Source: Caldifarciminota bacterium
GTDB taxonomy: Bacteria; Hydrothermota; Tepidihabitantia; SM23-42
Direction: 5' to 3'
NCBI GenBank assembly: GCA_027026255.1
Contig: JALVOT010000006.1
Coordinates: 62,001 to 126,000 of the forward strand
DNA length: 64,000 bases
Part shown: positions 41,904-48,606 of the stretch, in pieces
Position numbering within the stretch: the stretch's first letter is position 1
Layout of the letters: each line of letters opens with the position of its first letter
Translations under genes and position numbers: made by a program
The notes under the pieces: model-generated
Seen by the model: the letters and a program-made list of their open reading frames with translations, nothing else
Told to the model about the DNA's origin: nothing
The model's database searches: none

Positions 41904-42515
41904 ATGATTGACTGGCTTACCAACCGACCGGCAATTCTTATTTATGGATTTTTACTCTTTAATGCATTTTTTGAGAGTTTCTTTCCACCCTACCCATCCG
42001 ACGCCCTGGTATTGGTGTTTTCATTTATTGCCGGGCAGGGAGCCTGTAGTGTCTATATTGTTTATTTCTGCACTGTTATCGGCAGCATTACGGGGATTAT
42101 GGTGATTTATTATTTGGGAAAGACCCGGGGTGATGCATTGATAAATTTTCTTGCCCGCTCATTTTTGGGAAGATTTATCCCGGTCAGATTGATTGAAAGG
42201 GCGAAGGTGAAATTTCATCATCGCAGTGGTATGGTCGTATTTTTAAATCGTTTTATACCGGGAATGAGGGCGCCGATCTGTTTTGCTGCCGGGCTGGTTG
42301 GTGTTGAAGGTAATACATTCTTTCTGTTTAGTAGTATAAGTGTTTCACTGTGGAATTTTTTTCTGGTATTGGCCGGTTTCTATGTGGGGACAAACTGGGA
42401 GACGGCGCAGAGTTTCTTAAAGACATATAATTTAATCATCGCATCGCTTATTATTTTTATTGTTTTAATTGTTACAGTAAGCTATTTTATCAGAAGAAAA
42501 AGAAGACCGTTATGA
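41904..42515 (+). CDS. DedA-family membrane protein
   Basis: A 203-aa polytopic protein of the DedA/SNARE-associated (VTT) family, implicated in lipid scrambling and envelope homeostasis. Signatures: NAFFESFFPPYPSDALVLVFSFIAG with re-entrant loop residues, GKTRGDALINFLARSF, and FLNRFIPGMRAPICFAAGLVG. Four to five membrane helices. ATG lies 2 bp after the previous stop, and its end overlaps the convergent kinase-helicase gene. Confidence 0.87.
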   Translation: MIDWLTNRPAILIYGFLLFNAFFESFFPPYPSDALVLVFSFIAGQGACSVYIVYFCTVIGSITGIMVIYYLGKTRGDALINFLARSFLGRFIPVRLIERAKVKFHHRSGMVVFLNRFIPGMRAPICFAAGLVGVEGNTFFLFSSISVSLWNFFLVLAGFYVGTNWETAQSFLKTYNLIIASLIIFIVLIVTVSYFIRRKRRPL

Positions 42516-45035
42516 TTTATTTTTTCGGAACATATCAATCAGGAATCTTGATGGCCTTTGATACCTGCCGGCACACCATTTGGGGTATAAAAGATAGAGT
42601 TTTTTTCTTGCCCGGGTAAGGGCAACATAGCAGAGCCTTCTCTCTTCTTCCAATTCCCTGGGGTCGGTGAGTTTTCTTGTCATAGGAAAGACATCTTCAA
42701 TCAGGTCGACAATAAAGACCGCAGGAAATTCAAGACCCTTGGCGCTATGAATGGTCATCAGTTTTACTGTATCCTGATTCCAGTCTACTAAATCAAGGTC
42801 CTGAATCAGGCGCACTTCATTCAAAAAATTCGAAATTGCAGAGGCCTCATAACCCCGGGCAAATGATTTTAATTCTTTAATGGAGTCGTCCTTTAATTTA
42901 AGGGTCCGGGAGATTTCATCGATTATATTCACGGGTGATAGTCGTGCGCCATTATGGAAATGGTATTCCAGAATTTGGTTAATCTTTTTTGTCTTCTTCT
43001 TAATATGGAAGATTGCCCGGGCGCGTCCGATAAAGTCTTCCGGTGATAATTTTTTTGTATTTAATGAATCGATTAGGCCAAGATAATCGAGCAGTGGTTT
43101 AATATCGACCCGGTCGTAGAATGATATCTTGCCGATGATAGTATAGGGAATGCGTGCCCGGTTAAATGTCTCTTCATAGATTTTTGAAAGATAGTTCATT
43201 CGATATAATACTACAATATCACGGAATCTGAAGTTCTCTTTTTTCAGTTCCTTTATCTGGCGGACAACAAAATCTGCTTCGTCCTTCGGGGACTTTGCAG
43301 TGTAGACTGCAATATCCGCAAAATCGAGATTGGCAAGCGCTGTGCCGGGTCGATGCATTAGATTATTGGCAATTTCAAGAATTTCCTGGGGCAGACGAAA
43401 ACTCCTGTTGAGGGTATAAATTCTGGTGCCTTTAAAATCCCTGGGTACCTGATAGATTAATTCGCGCCGGGCACCACGCCAGCCATAGATTGTCTGGTCC
43501 TCGTCTCCGGTGAAGAATATGTTTTCTTTATAGATTAGCGAAATTAATTGGTACTGGGCATAGTTTATATCCTGGAGTTCATCGACAAATATATATTTAA
43601 ATAAGTTCTGATAATATGCCCTTATATCTTCGTGGTTCTTTAGAAGTTTTACCGCATAGAGGAGTAAGTCATCATAGTCAAGGAGATTACTTTCTTTCAG
43701 GAGATTTTGATAATCAAGATACACCTTTGCACAGTACCGCTCCCAGCTGTTTTTCGGTTCAAATTGTTCGGGAAATATACATTTTGCCTTTAATTTTCGG
43801 ATTGTTTTCATTATCGCCCGGAGCTGGTATTTACCGGATTTTAATCCCATTTTAAAAAAGATTTCTTCCGGCTCGATAATCGTGAAATCCTGGTCAAAAT
43901 CGAGACGCTCGGCATCCCGGCGCAGCATCCTCATCCCCAAGGTATGAAATGTCCCCACCCACAAATCATAAGGGGATACGGGAATCAATTCCTTGATGCG
44001 GTTTCGAATATCATTCGCCGCCTTATTTGTGAATGTGCCGACAAAGATTCTATCTGGGGCTATACCTTTTTTTATCAGGCTGACCACTGCATAGGTGAGG
44101 GTTGTTGTCTTTCCGCATCCGGCCTGTCCCAGTACCAGGATCGGCCCATTGATTGATTCAATAATCTCTTTCTGGACGGGTGTGAGTTCAAGTTCGGCGC
44201 TTTTCCTTTCCGGCATAGAAATGGGTTTTTTTATTACAACGGAACGTTTCTTTTGGGTCAACCATTCCAAGGCAGTCTGGGCGTCGGGCCTTGAATCAGG
44301 AGCAACCTCAAGGCATTGGTGGATGACTTCTTCAATGTAATCAGGAATACCCGGATGTAGTATTGAAGGAACCAGATAATTATTTTTCGCAATCTTTTTT
44401 CTTATACCATCAAGGCTGGCATCAAGAAACGGAGGCACTCCGGTGAGCAGTTCATACAGAATTACGCCCACACTCCAGATATCGGATTTTTCACTGTAAT
44501 TACCGGTCCAGGATTCTGGCGCCATATAGATCGGGGTACCGGCGATCGAGGCCGAGATTGTCTTTGATTTGATAAAGAGGGCAAGACCAAAATCGCTTAT
44601 CTTTACACTGTCCCGTGCTATCCTTCCATCAATGAGAATATTTTCCGGTTTTAAATCTCTGTGGAGAACCCCTTTTCTATGGGCATAGTTTAATCCATCA
44701 AGGAGCTGGCTTGTGATACTTATCGCAAGTTCAATATCAATACCCTGATCAGTGATTATATCACGCAAGGTCTTCCCCTGGATATATTCCATCACCAGAA
44801 CAAATTTTTCATCGATAAAGTCGATGTTGTAGAATCTTACTATGTTCGGATGATTAAGTGAGGCAAGAAGTTTTGCTTCATCCCGAAGCATCAACATTTC
44901 CTCTTTTTTCATACGCGATATCTTGAGGGCAAAATTCTGTTCAACAATGGTGTCTCGAGCCAGAAATACATCACCGAATCTCCCTCCACCCAGCCATTCG
45001 ATAATTTCGTATTTACCCAATCTTTTTGAAAGCAC
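42510..45035 (-). CDS. Ser/Thr protein kinase fused to a UvrD/Rep-type helicase
   Basis: One uninterrupted 841-aa frame. Residues 1-260 form a complete Hanks kinase: glycine loop LGGGRFGDVF, Lys38, HRDLKPEN (HRD 125-127), DFG 148-150, APE 172-174. After a linker of about 25 residues an SF1A helicase begins: GQAGCGKT (303-310), GTFTNKAA, Walker B FVDELQD (485-489), GDEDQTIYGWRGA (510-522), SFRLPQEILEIAN, MTIHSAKGLEF and VALTRARKKLYLL. All catalytic residues of both halves look intact. Kinase and UvrD domains are not normally joined, so phosphorylation may control DNA unwinding or sense damage or phage. The start is GTG, 3 nt after the ARPP-1-like gene stop, indicating tight coupling. Confidence 0.9.
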   Translation of the reverse strand: MLSKRLGKYEIIEWLGGGRFGDVFLARDTIVEQNFALKISRMKKEEMLMLRDEAKLLASLNHPNIVRFYNIDFIDEKFVLVMEYIQGKTLRDIITDQGIDIELAISITSQLLDGLNYAHRKGVLHRDLKPENILIDGRIARDSVKISDFGLALFIKSKTISASIAGTPIYMAPESWTGNYSEKSDIWSVGVILYELLTGVPPFLDASLDGIRKKIAKNNYLVPSILHPGIPDYIEEVIHQCLEVAPDSRPDAQTALEWLTQKKRSVVIKKPISMPERKSAELELTPVQKEIIESINGPILVLGQAGCGKTTTLTYAVVSLIKKGIAPDRIFVGTFTNKAANDIRNRIKELIPVSPYDLWVGTFHTLGMRMLRRDAERLDFDQDFTIIEPEEIFFKMGLKSGKYQLRAIMKTIRKLKAKCIFPEQFEPKNSWERYCAKVYLDYQNLLKESNLLDYDDLLLYAVKLLKNHEDIRAYYQNLFKYIFVDELQDINYAQYQLISLIYKENIFFTGDEDQTIYGWRGARRELIYQVPRDFKGTRIYTLNRSFRLPQEILEIANNLMHRPGTALANLDFADIAVYTAKSPKDEADFVVRQIKELKKENFRFRDIVVLYRMNYLSKIYEETFNRARIPYTIIGKISFYDRVDIKPLLDYLGLIDSLNTKKLSPEDFIGRARAIFHIKKKTKKINQILEYHFHNGARLSPVNIIDEISRTLKLKDDSIKELKSFARGYEASAISNFLNEVRLIQDLDLVDWNQDTVKLMTIHSAKGLEFPAVFIVDLIEDVFPMTRKLTDPRELEEERRLCYVALTRARKKLYLLYPKWCAGRYQRPSRFLIDMFRKNKS

Positions 45036-45038
45036 CGA

Positions 45039-45914
45039 TTAATTGGGGAATATTGATAAATGTATCAATGAATTTTTATGTGCTACGGCCTGACCAAAGA
45101 ATGTTTTCTGCCTTATTCTGAAATGTTTGACATCTTTTCGGGGATTGAAGTGTTCAAAGAAATAACAGAGACCTTTAAAGAATTCATTGATGTCAGAATT
45201 GTTCGATTTTATATGTTGATACTCGATTGCATCCAGTGCGTAGGCACGAAGGAGTTTCGGCTCGAATCTTTTGTAGATTTTGGGATTTAAAAATATATCA
45301 CAACTGAGGATATGATTTTTTGCACAGCCGATAAATCCGATTATATTGTCGTCGAGACCTTTGAAGTCTTCAATATAGCGTTCAATTTCATTGTTCAGGG
45401 TGGTATAAATTTCGTGCATTGATGAAGTCGCCGACGAGACCCGGGTTGTTGTCAATTTGCGTTTTATTTCATTCCATACCCTGTGCTGGAGGTCGGTTCT
45501 TTTATGCGATTTCTGGGAGAGGATGGCGCGAATCTTTGGATATGAGCAGAAGCCGGTCTTAAATCCGCCGATTTCATTCCATCTTCCTTCCTCGGCACAA
45601 AATACCGCCACCCTTTCTCTGGTTCTTTCCGGAATCAGGGTTGAACAGGCAATGATACGGTTTTGAAGGGAACCGATTACTTCTTCACCATCCAGCATCA
45701 GGAGAGGTGTTCGCCCCTGGTTTTCAATCTCTAAGTTATCAATTTGGGGTTCATCAAGTTCACTAATATCGGCAATTTTTTTCTTCAGGGCTTCTTCAAT
45801 GTTTATTGCTTCAAAGCCATTTTTGTTTTTTCCGGCGATAGGATAGATTGTTAAATTTCTTAAAAAAATCGGTTCTTTATAATTTGTAATTTCTGGTAAT
45901 TTCCATCTTTCCAT
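45039..45914 (-). CDS. ARPP-1-like domain protein
   Basis: A 291-aa soluble protein. FLRNLTIYPIAGKN, the block TPLLMLDGEEVIGSLQNRII, STLIPERTRERVAVFCAEEGRW and ...HEIYTTLNNEIERYIEDF match the ARPP-1 domain pattern (ARG and rhodanese-phosphatase-associated protein). The biochemical role of that domain is not established as far as I know. It lies between a TonB-dependent receptor (8 bp) and the kinase-helicase (3 bp), so the three should share one transcript. A partnership with the kinase-helicase is inferred from this. Confidence 0.75.
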   Translation of the reverse strand: MERWKLPEITNYKEPIFLRNLTIYPIAGKNKNGFEAINIEEALKKKIADISELDEPQIDNLEIENQGRTPLLMLDGEEVIGSLQNRIIACSTLIPERTRERVAVFCAEEGRWNEIGGFKTGFCSYPKIRAILSQKSHKRTDLQHRVWNEIKRKLTTTRVSSATSSMHEIYTTLNNEIERYIEDFKGLDDNIIGFIGCAKNHILSCDIFLNPKIYKRFEPKLLRAYALDAIEYQHIKSNNSDINEFFKGLCYFFEHFNPRKDVKHFRIRQKTFFGQAVAHKNSLIHLSIFPN

Positions 45915-45922
45915 TTATACTT

Positions 45923-48481
45923 CTATCTGAGGGCGATATTTATACCCAGGCGCGCCCTTCTCGGCGCGGTATATGCATTCACCCAATCATCGCTGTTTTT
46001 GGCGAATTCCCGCATTGCAATAAATTCTTCATAGGGTGTAATCAGGCCATCGTGATTTCTATCTCCGGCCGGATTGTAATATGCAGAATTTTTAGATATA
46101 TCAATATACGGTGGTGGATGGTCAAAGTCTTCTATCTTTATATCTTCCAGGGCGATAACTGGATAATGGGGAGCGATCTCGTATCGTTCATCAAGGAGAT
46201 TGATGATTTCAATATTGAAGCTGATTTTAGTTTGATTGATTTTAAAACTCCGTGATATCATACAATCGATCTGACGCTGGAACGGCAGTTGGAGGATATT
46301 ACGTTCTTCATATTTCCCTTCAGGACCGGGTGGGGTATAAGGAAAGCCATTTCCAAAGAAGGCAAATAGAGTCAATTCTGCACCCAGAGGAAGTTTTGAA
46401 GTTCCCTGGACAAAGATACGATGGCGCTGGTCAAAGTCGAGATAATATTCTTGGGTGGGAGGCACAAAGCCGGTATCCGGGTTTTCATAATAATAACGAT
46501 AATAGACCTCTTCAGCATATGAGCTTGTGCCCCGGGCCCAGGAAAGGGTGTATGATAGCTTGCCCCTGAATAGAGAATTTTTGAATTCCAGAATCGTTTC
46601 TATTCCTTTGACATTTGCATATTCAACATTAAAATATGTAACATAATTATGGGGTGATGTCTTTACCAGTTTTGTCCCCAAGAGGTCGGAGATATCTTTA
46701 AAAAAGGTGTTTACGGTGATTAATAGGTCTTTTTTCACTTCACCCTGAAGCCCGATTTCCAGGGCGATTGTCTTTTCCGGGCTGAGATCAGGATTGCCGA
46801 CAAGCGGAATCTGGGTTATATATGATGGAAAGGGTAGAAGATTATAGTAGTCATACATCTGATTATAAAGAGGCGGTTGAGTATACTGACCGACATTGGC
46901 ACGAAACAGAAATTTTTCAGTAACCATAAAAGAAAAACCGAAACGGGGGGAAATGGTGGTTTTTGGTTTTATATCCTGAATACCATTTGTAAAATAGTCA
47001 TATCGGACGCCGAGCTTTGCGAATAATCCTTTATAATCAATATTATCCTGAACAAACAGGGCAATTTCCCGGGGACAGTGGTTGTATTCGTCAATAAGCT
47101 GATGTGCAGTGTCACTGATGAAATAGGTGAAGTTTTTTAAATCCAGGAGATTATACTCAATCCCGGTTTTTAATTCTTGATATTGATGAATCTGCAAGTC
47201 GGTATTGAAACTGGTTCTTAAAATCCGTGATGTTCTATTCTGATATTCATAATAATCTCCTTCAAATGGAATGTTCGGTATATTTACACCGAATGGGTTG
47301 TTAACACCTCCATGGGGCCATTGTAAGGTGGAATAGTCACGAAAGGTGAAATCTTTAAATTGACCGCCGCTGCTTTTTACACCAAACTGTTTTCCGGTAT
47401 ATAATCTGCTCACCGTCAGATTGAAGAAATTTCTCGGGTTGGGTAAAAAGTTTATATTTAAAATCTCCAAGTCACCTTTTCTCATATCAGAACGGTAGTG
47501 TTCAAGGTTGTATTTCCATTTGCTATTATATCGTTCAAACTGACTCCTTGACTTCGCCCCGCTGAAACTGAGGTTAAAATTTCCTGAAGGTGAAAAGATG
47601 AATTTTGAGTAGAGGGTATAATCATCGCGTTTTTTATGGGGAAGAATATAGAGCCGCGGATCCCAATCATTGGTGTGCATTAAATCAAAATTGAAATATG
47701 TCTTTAATTTTTTATTCAAAGGAATGTGAAGGGAAGATTGATAATTTTCATAACCAAAATCATAATAAAAGGGCATAATCCTTTCGGTTTTACCGAAAAA
47801 TCTTCCATTCGGTTTTTGTGCGGGATGTTCGGTGATAAGATTGATCACCCCGGACATTGCCCGACCATACTCAGCATCAAAACCTCCCGGCAAAAAGATG
47901 ACCTGATTTACTGCCCCCCGGGAAATATTTATTGCGGGTTCACCGGTCTGGGGATCGAGAATGGGGACATTATCTATCATATATAATACCTCGGTTGACC
48001 GACCGCCTCGAACATGGATTGCGGTATCAGAACGCGCCACTGATGGCTGGAATGCCACAATATTCATTGAATAGTCAATGGGTATATTTAAAATATCATT
48101 TCTCCTCACGATATAGGTTGCGCACACCATATCCTTTTTTACTGAAGGTATCTTACTGGTTACGACCAGGGGGGGGACTTCAATATATGACTTCTTTAAG
48201 GCTATTTTAAGGCGCACTGTCTGGTCGATATTCACATTGACATTTCGGATACGCTTGGTTTGATATCCAATAAATGAAACTTCTATATCATATTGTCCGG
48301 GGGGGACATTTAGTATATAGAATCTACCCTGCTCATCAGTCGCTGCACCCATTTCGCTGTTTAGAATAATGACATCGGCATAGGGGAGTGGTTCTTTGGA
48401 CTCTGCGTCCTTTACAGTGCCTTGAATCTTTCCGGTGAGACCTTGAAAAAGACCGATTGTAATTAAAATACCTGCTACCAT
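45923..48481 (-). CDS. TonB-dependent outer-membrane receptor
   Basis: An 852-aa ligand-gated outer-membrane channel. Signal peptide, then a carboxypeptidase-regulatory-like domain (GKIQGTVKDAESKEPLPYADVIILN; DEQGRFYILNVPPGQYDIEVSFIGY), a plug domain (VRGGRSTEVLYMIDNVPI; GGFDAEYGRAMSGVINLIT), and a 22-strand-type barrel with KPKTTISPRFGFSF and YTQPPLYNQMYDYY. Near the C-terminus DRNHDGLITPYEEF looks like an EF-hand/dockerin Ca2+ loop. The cargo is unknown. ATG 48481 is 5 nt after a consensus -10 (leaderless). TonB/ExbBD are not in the window. Confidence 0.9.
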   Translation of the reverse strand: MVAGILITIGLFQGLTGKIQGTVKDAESKEPLPYADVIILNSEMGAATDEQGRFYILNVPPGQYDIEVSFIGYQTKRIRNVNVNIDQTVRLKIALKKSYIEVPPLVVTSKIPSVKKDMVCATYIVRRNDILNIPIDYSMNIVAFQPSVARSDTAIHVRGGRSTEVLYMIDNVPILDPQTGEPAINISRGAVNQVIFLPGGFDAEYGRAMSGVINLITEHPAQKPNGRFFGKTERIMPFYYDFGYENYQSSLHIPLNKKLKTYFNFDLMHTNDWDPRLYILPHKKRDDYTLYSKFIFSPSGNFNLSFSGAKSRSQFERYNSKWKYNLEHYRSDMRKGDLEILNINFLPNPRNFFNLTVSRLYTGKQFGVKSSGGQFKDFTFRDYSTLQWPHGGVNNPFGVNIPNIPFEGDYYEYQNRTSRILRTSFNTDLQIHQYQELKTGIEYNLLDLKNFTYFISDTAHQLIDEYNHCPREIALFVQDNIDYKGLFAKLGVRYDYFTNGIQDIKPKTTISPRFGFSFMVTEKFLFRANVGQYTQPPLYNQMYDYYNLLPFPSYITQIPLVGNPDLSPEKTIALEIGLQGEVKKDLLITVNTFFKDISDLLGTKLVKTSPHNYVTYFNVEYANVKGIETILEFKNSLFRGKLSYTLSWARGTSSYAEEVYYRYYYENPDTGFVPPTQEYYLDFDQRHRIFVQGTSKLPLGAELTLFAFFGNGFPYTPPGPEGKYEERNILQLPFQRQIDCMISRSFKINQTKISFNIEIINLLDERYEIAPHYPVIALEDIKIEDFDHPPPYIDISKNSAYYNPAGDRNHDGLITPYEEFIAMREFAKNSDDWVNAYTAPRRARLGINIALR

Positions 48482-48486
48482 AATTT

Positions 48487-48514
48487 ATTATAATAAAAAT
48501 ATTTGATTTGTCAA
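48487..48514 (-). promoter_or_regulatory. Leaderless promoter of the TonB-ARPP1-kinase/helicase operon
   Basis: TTGACA (RC of 48509-48514), a 16-bp spacer and TATAAT (RC of 48487-48492), then 5 nt to ATG 48481. It is divergent from the pilM promoter. Confidence 0.85.
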
Positions 48515-48578: not shown

Positions 48579-48606
48579 TTGACATATTCATAATTATATA
48601 TATAAT
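48579..48606 (+). promoter_or_regulatory. Promoter of pilMNOPQ
   Basis: TTGACA (48579-48584), a 16-bp spacer and TATAAT (48601-48606). An AT-rich leader of about 35 nt ends in AAAGGAG before ATG 48649. Confidence 0.85.

Follow-up and report, generated by a model that had tools for sequence, protein, structure and literature searches.

A kinase-helicase fusion gene beside an ARPP-1 gene

The poorly studied bacterial phylum Caldifarciminota is known in the literature as the WOR-3 lineage (PMC12285271). From a 2.1-Mb genome of this phylum (99% complete) we analyzed a stretch of 64,000 nucleotides (contig JALVOT010000006.1, positions 62,001 to 126,000), referred to here as the window. Located on its minus strand is a gene with a GTG start (42510..45035 (-)) that encodes, in a single open reading frame of 841 amino acids, a Hanks-type Ser/Thr kinase joined to a UvrD-type helicase, as defined by Pfam matches and a family alignment. 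Immediately upstream lies a gene for a 291-aa protein, ARPP-1 (45039..45914 (-)), which matches the ARPP family (ARG and rhodanese-phosphatase associated protein, PF20208; PMC9503650) from end to end (E 3e-62; 211 bits against a gathering score of 27) and includes the invariant Cys and Gln of that family. The TAA stop codon of ARPP-1 is followed after 3 nt by the GTG of the fusion gene. A preliminary description of this DNA had pointed out both the single frame and the 3-nt spacing, and the Pfam matches and reading frame coordinates confirm them.

The kinase domain (residues 9-257; 44265..45011 (-)) matches PF00069 (E 6e-58) and has a PknB-like fold with invariant columns in the family alignment. 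It carries the elements expected of a Hanks kinase, namely the catalytic Lys, the C-helix Glu and the HRD, DFG and APE motifs, and looks active as judged from its sequence. An apparently flexible linker (residues 262-281; 44193..44252 (-); AlphaFold2 pLDDT below 50) leads into the N-terminal part of the UvrD motor (residues 284-535; 43431..44186 (-)), which matches PF00580 (E 4e-66) and includes Walker A, DExQD and GDxxQxIYxxRG motifs, again with invariant columns. The C-terminal part of the motor (residues 719-817; 42585..42881 (-)) matches PF13361 (E 8e-47) and contains H.AKG.EF and EERRL.YVA.TR. The helicase half has the SF1A motor motif set, represented in the translation by GQAGCGKT, DELQD, GDEDQTIYGWRGA and MTIHSAKGLEF. 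In the AlphaFold2 model (pLDDT 83.6, pTM 0.55), the disordered linker separates a kinase of PknB-like fold from a motor resembling UvrD.

The helicase had been described at the outset as a complete SF1A enzyme. This holds for the RecA-fold motor motifs but not for the 2B region (approximately residues 639-762; 42750..43121 (-)), which, by comparison with the host's separate PcrA (L002), is about 50 aa shorter (124 versus 175 aa) and lacks the GIG duplex-binding motif. A GIG-like motif was found in 0 of 55 members of the fusion family versus 24 of 29 comparators, as scored by sequence pattern and not by structure. In UvrD helicases, whose monomers translocate on single-stranded DNA, contact between 2B and the duplex has a regulatory role (PMC13238157). 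GajB, a UvrD-like protein that is missing the GIG motif, the gating helix and the pin, has no DNA-unwinding activity (PMC10681800).

The best sequence and fold matches of the helicase half are the SF1A helicases PcrA, UvrD and Rep (TIGR01073; PDB 1PJR, 2IS4), with which it shares all motor motifs. However, it differs from them in its N-terminal kinase, its short 2B region and its position in a separate clade, and the host encodes another protein, PcrA, of this type (628 aa, 787 bits to TIGR01073). The fusion falls below the equivalog cut-offs (429 of 911 bits for PcrA, and lower for UvrD/Rep), although the host PcrA, at 787, is also under its cut-off. The kinase half shares the complete catalytic core of PknB-type Hanks kinases (PF00069), PknB being among the closest solved bacterial kinases, but it lacks PASTA, TPR or any other usual tail and is instead joined to a DNA motor. 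Gabija GajB likewise lacks GIG, whereas the fusion has no adjacent GajA (OLD/TOPRIM), carries a kinase and is distributed like a core gene. A Gabija-like pair lies about 13 kb to the left of the window (G000:C6:45.8-49.1 kb; L005:59-3300), where a gene for an AAA_15/OLD-TOPRIM protein (469 aa) overlaps one for a UvrD-like helicase (611 aa). The open-licence literature that we searched yielded no characterized kinase-UvrD fusion, so that, to this extent, the architecture is uncharacterized, as originally proposed.

The predicted structure of ARPP-1 is confident (pLDDT 92.9). An alignment of 44 sequences revealed invariant residues G76, G81, Q84, R86, C106, E108, R111, R129, Q143, W147 and G193, of which the first seven define a conserved core (residues 76-112; 45579..45689 (-)). 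This set of invariant Cys, Glu, Gln and Arg residues suggests that ARPP-1 is an enzyme, in line with the proposal that ARPP acts on ribose-containing molecules (PMC9503650). In the PF20208 tree there are two clades, one with signal-like N-termini, which is also present in genomes without the fusion, and one that is cytosolic, mostly 280-310 aa in length, and includes the window protein. Members of the former (L040, L041, L206, L208 and relatives) are approximately 315-396 aa long and do not adjoin the fusion. In addition, family f22 encodes divergent ARPP-1-like proteins of about 450 aa (L222:1980-3332; G034:C164) that match the profile partially.

Conservation of the fusion and its pairing with ARPP-1

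We called fusions with a cut-off of E below 1e-75, a threshold that almost always leaves out helicases and kinases occurring on their own. This identified the fusion in 64 of 147 genomes of the phylum, and in 34 of 79 genera, with one copy per genome; within the window's own family, every listed genome except one has the fusion or a fragment of it. The kinase-helicase junction was in a single frame in all 63 copies that were extracted, the 64th (G092) being a contig-end fragment of the C-terminal part. Catalytic residues of both halves are kept in at least 98% of 57 nearly complete copies. Among 28 diverse members, the kinase residues K38, E53, H125, D127, K129, N132 and D148 are invariant, as are the helicase residues G308-K309-T310, D485-E486, Q488-D489, G510-D511, R520, H763, K766-G767 and R808, and members with invariant catalytic centers span 31-77% identity to the window protein. 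Close pairs gave dN/dS values of 0.01-0.21 for the fusion, indicating purifying selection, and of 0.11-0.20 for ARPP-1. The helicases of this fusion family form one clade in the tree, with a different fusion described below falling outside it, and the family has a single origin. The fusion is an ancient, long-conserved, single-copy gene that has descended mostly vertically.

These data also bear on whether the gene is real. A frameshift or chimeric assembly at residues 260-290, named in the preliminary description as grounds for discarding the fusion, is excluded by the same in-frame junction in 62 further assemblies of the phylum and in four from another phylum. The explanation that the fusion is an assembly chimera or a recent accident, with ARPP-1 nearby by chance, is refuted by this conservation of the junction; strong purifying selection and the conserved pairing with ARPP-1 also speak against it, nothing was found in its support, and its probability is negligible.

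PF20208 proteins occur in 81 of the 147 genomes, among them 61 of the 64 with the fusion. Outside of fusion genomes, the cytosolic clade is found in G021 and probably G047 only (the ARPP-1 fragments of G020, G047 and G092 were placed in this clade by context, not by the tree). Fusion and cytosolic ARPP-1 are thus both present in 61 genomes, the fusion alone in 3, ARPP-1 alone in 2 and neither in 81 (Fisher p ~5e-35, a value that overstates independence because the genomes are related). All 19 fusion-bearing families have cytosolic ARPP-1 in at least one genome, and the own-family genome without the fusion (G077) has ARPP-1 genes of the exported kind only. The two genes are same-strand neighbors in 37 of the 64 fusion genomes, with ARPP-1 upstream in 35 and downstream in 2. 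Their gap is mostly 3-5 nt in the window's family, stop and start codons overlap by 4 nt (ATGA/TTGA) in distant lineages (L038, L067, L037, L233, L236), and the two families with reversed gene order show a gap of 3-8 nt and an AGGAGG-type site. At the level of family groups, the ARPP-1 tree matches the groups of the fusion. The coupling of the two genes anticipated from the window is thus supported by strict co-occurrence, conserved translational coupling, matching tree groups and the presence of the pair in a second phylum. ARPP-1 is a real, functionally coupled partner of the fusion, and a family without known function thereby gains a fixed partner.

The second phylum is that of an Aminicenantes genome, presumably Acidobacteriota, in which a profile search of 247 genomes identified four full-length members of the fusion family. 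Each is immediately preceded by an ARPP-1 gene that overlaps it. One is on a 771-kb contig (L236), where the pair has rpsG-fusA on one side and, on the other, genes encoding EF-P and an FHA-GGDEF protein, the latter a possible phosphothreonine reader. The second-phylum helicases nest within the fusion clade, adjacent to families f28 and f29, which suggests that the pair was transferred between phyla; the accompanying ARPP-1 proteins fall in the cytosolic clade, and their tree does not resolve the transfer. In 149 genomes of this phylum, most ARPP-1 carriers lack the fusion, and the linkage in four of four cases therefore does not result from ubiquitous ARPP-1. Searches of 200 Gemmatimonadota genomes, of 247 genomes from the phylum that includes G148 and of 237 from that of G165 yielded no full-length fusion; the Gemmatimonadota run does find helicases, with few candidates scored per genome, such that rare members could be missed. 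In a contig scan with the fusion alignment, the best 80 loci were helicase-only and dominated by ordinary PcrA.

A different kinase-UvrD protein (962 aa; L237:5923-8808 (-)) is encoded in G450, a genome of 6.5 Mb from the phylum to which G167 and the Aminicenantes genome belong. This protein has the same domain order, but its helicase domain lies outside the fusion clade and ARPP-1 is on another contig. It is probably an independent fusion; given its position in the tree and its separation from ARPP-1, the kinase-UvrD architecture arose at least twice.

Possible functions of the pair

We tentatively favor, with a little less than even confidence, a two-gene module that signals the state of DNA, in which a DNA-sensing kinase, composed of a UvrD-type translocase and a tethered kinase domain, acts with ARPP-1. 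The UvrD-type part would be an ATP-driven motor that loads onto single-stranded or broken DNA, such as gaps and stalled forks. Lacking the GIG duplex contact, it would function mainly as a single-stranded DNA translocase or sensor, with the separate PcrA serving as the housekeeping helicase. DNA engagement, clustering of motors, or both would bring the flexibly tethered kinase domains together and switch them on, and the kinase would then modify downstream proteins. ARPP-1, made in coupled amounts, might, at the same DNA, process the lesion or a nucleotide signal, or might instead be a regulated substrate; it may accordingly be a substrate, a regulator or a parallel enzyme. The module would have a role in DNA damage or replication stress. 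A more specific version, in which a checkpoint-like bacterial Hanks kinase is switched on by its own DNA motor and ARPP-1, as a dedicated enzyme, acts either on a nucleotide signal or on damaged sugars of DNA, for example at ends that are abasic or ADP-ribosylated, appears unlikely as it stands. A signalling kinase and a DNA motor, normally found at different levels of control, are here joined in one conserved gene. If DNA engagement is directly coupled to Ser/Thr phosphorylation, this would be a bacterial analogue of the DNA-damage kinases of eukaryotes, and, if checkpoint-like, the kinase would represent a core DNA-stress pathway of WOR-3 bacteria that has no counterpart in model organisms.

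Several observations weigh against such a module. The fusion and ARPP-1 are at separate loci with unrelated neighbors in many lineages, and no ARPP-1 was detected in three of the fusion genomes, including one that is 98% complete. A fold search with ARPP-1 in the PDB and viral models gave no match at E <= 0.001 that would name its chemistry, no DNA-repair gene is a conserved neighbor among the neighbors profiled, and the placement of kinase and helicase relative to one another is unreliable in the AlphaFold2 model, as its pTM indicates.

The main rival to a DNA-responsive kinase is control in the opposite direction, the one suggested in the preliminary description, in which autophosphorylation or ARPP-1 gates the motor, replacing regulation by 2B and GIG, and the protein is a regulated accessory or repair helicase. 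Loss of GIG takes away the usual UvrD brake, and both domains reside in a single chain, connected by some 20 residues that are disordered in the AlphaFold2 model, yet the kinase might equally well act in trans, no phosphosite was found to be conserved, and the linker is not conserved in the family alignment. We consider this improbable; the loss of GIG together with the conserved kinase seems to fit control of the kinase by DNA at least as well as control of unwinding by the kinase. Somewhat more doubtful is a stress-signalling node: a nucleotide or ribose signal would be sensed or processed by ARPP-1, which together with the kinase would connect DNA replication to the state of second messengers, and the helicase part would serve mainly to bring the kinase to DNA. 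In three lineages where cytosolic ARPP-1 is apart from the fusion, it adjoins in operons genes for RelA/SpoT (f18, f19), CdaA (f20, f21) or a GGDEF-AAA-TPR protein (f26) (loci L186, L187, L188; L191-L195; L198-L201), and the FHA-GGDEF gene near the second-phylum pair points the same way. In other lineages, however, ARPP-1 adjoins asparaginase, OTCase, ABC-transporter or epimerase genes, and the pattern may be partly due to chance. A second-messenger link had been considered as the main account and was downgraded because of these metabolic neighbors.

The preliminary description had also raised a response to phage. An anti-phage system of this kind would combine a UvrD-like sensor (cf. GajB), a kinase effector (cf. 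single-kinase defense genes) and accessory ARPP-1 (cf. ADP-ribose-centered conflict systems). PADLOC models for GajB and PD-T4-6 kinases do match the two halves, although these models pick up UvrD proteins and kinases in general, and ARPP is predicted to take part in conflict systems (PMC9503650). The described contexts of ARPP are ARG systems, HIRAN, WYL and PF01522, with no kinase-helicase partner among them (PMC9503650), and neither an ADP-ribosylglycohydrolase nor a rhodanese-phosphatase was found among the neighbors profiled. Rather than the patchy, mobile distribution of defense islands, the fusion shows a single copy that is nearly universal in whole families, mostly vertical trees, no defense neighbors and housekeeping ones instead (in the second phylum, for instance, rpsG-fusA and EF-P), and no match covering 80% of its length among 50,697 records of phages and 72,556 of plasmids. 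No PADLOC model matched ARPP-1. For these reasons phage defense is very unlikely.

Neighboring genes and a candidate promoter

In the window, the neighbors of the fusion are ARPP-1 and a VTT-domain gene, and the neighbors of the pair vary between families. A TonB-dependent receptor gene (45923..48481 (-)) lies 8 nt upstream of ARPP-1, and in the window's family it is probably on the same transcript as ARPP-1 and the fusion. We rejected the receptor as a third member of the module, as it adjoins the pair only in families f1-f2. Upstream of the receptor gene is a candidate operon promoter, a perfect TTGACA-N16-TATAAT (48487..48514 (-)) identified by its match to the sigma-70 consensus only. This site forms a divergent pair with a second perfect TTGACA-N16-TATAAT on the plus strand (48579-48606 (+)). 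The minus-strand site ends 6 nt before the annotated start of the receptor gene, which hints that the transcript is leaderless or that the gene actually starts further downstream. The same genome also contains a 1632-aa open frame in which a kinase is followed by an ATPase-like region (L006:1489-3903).

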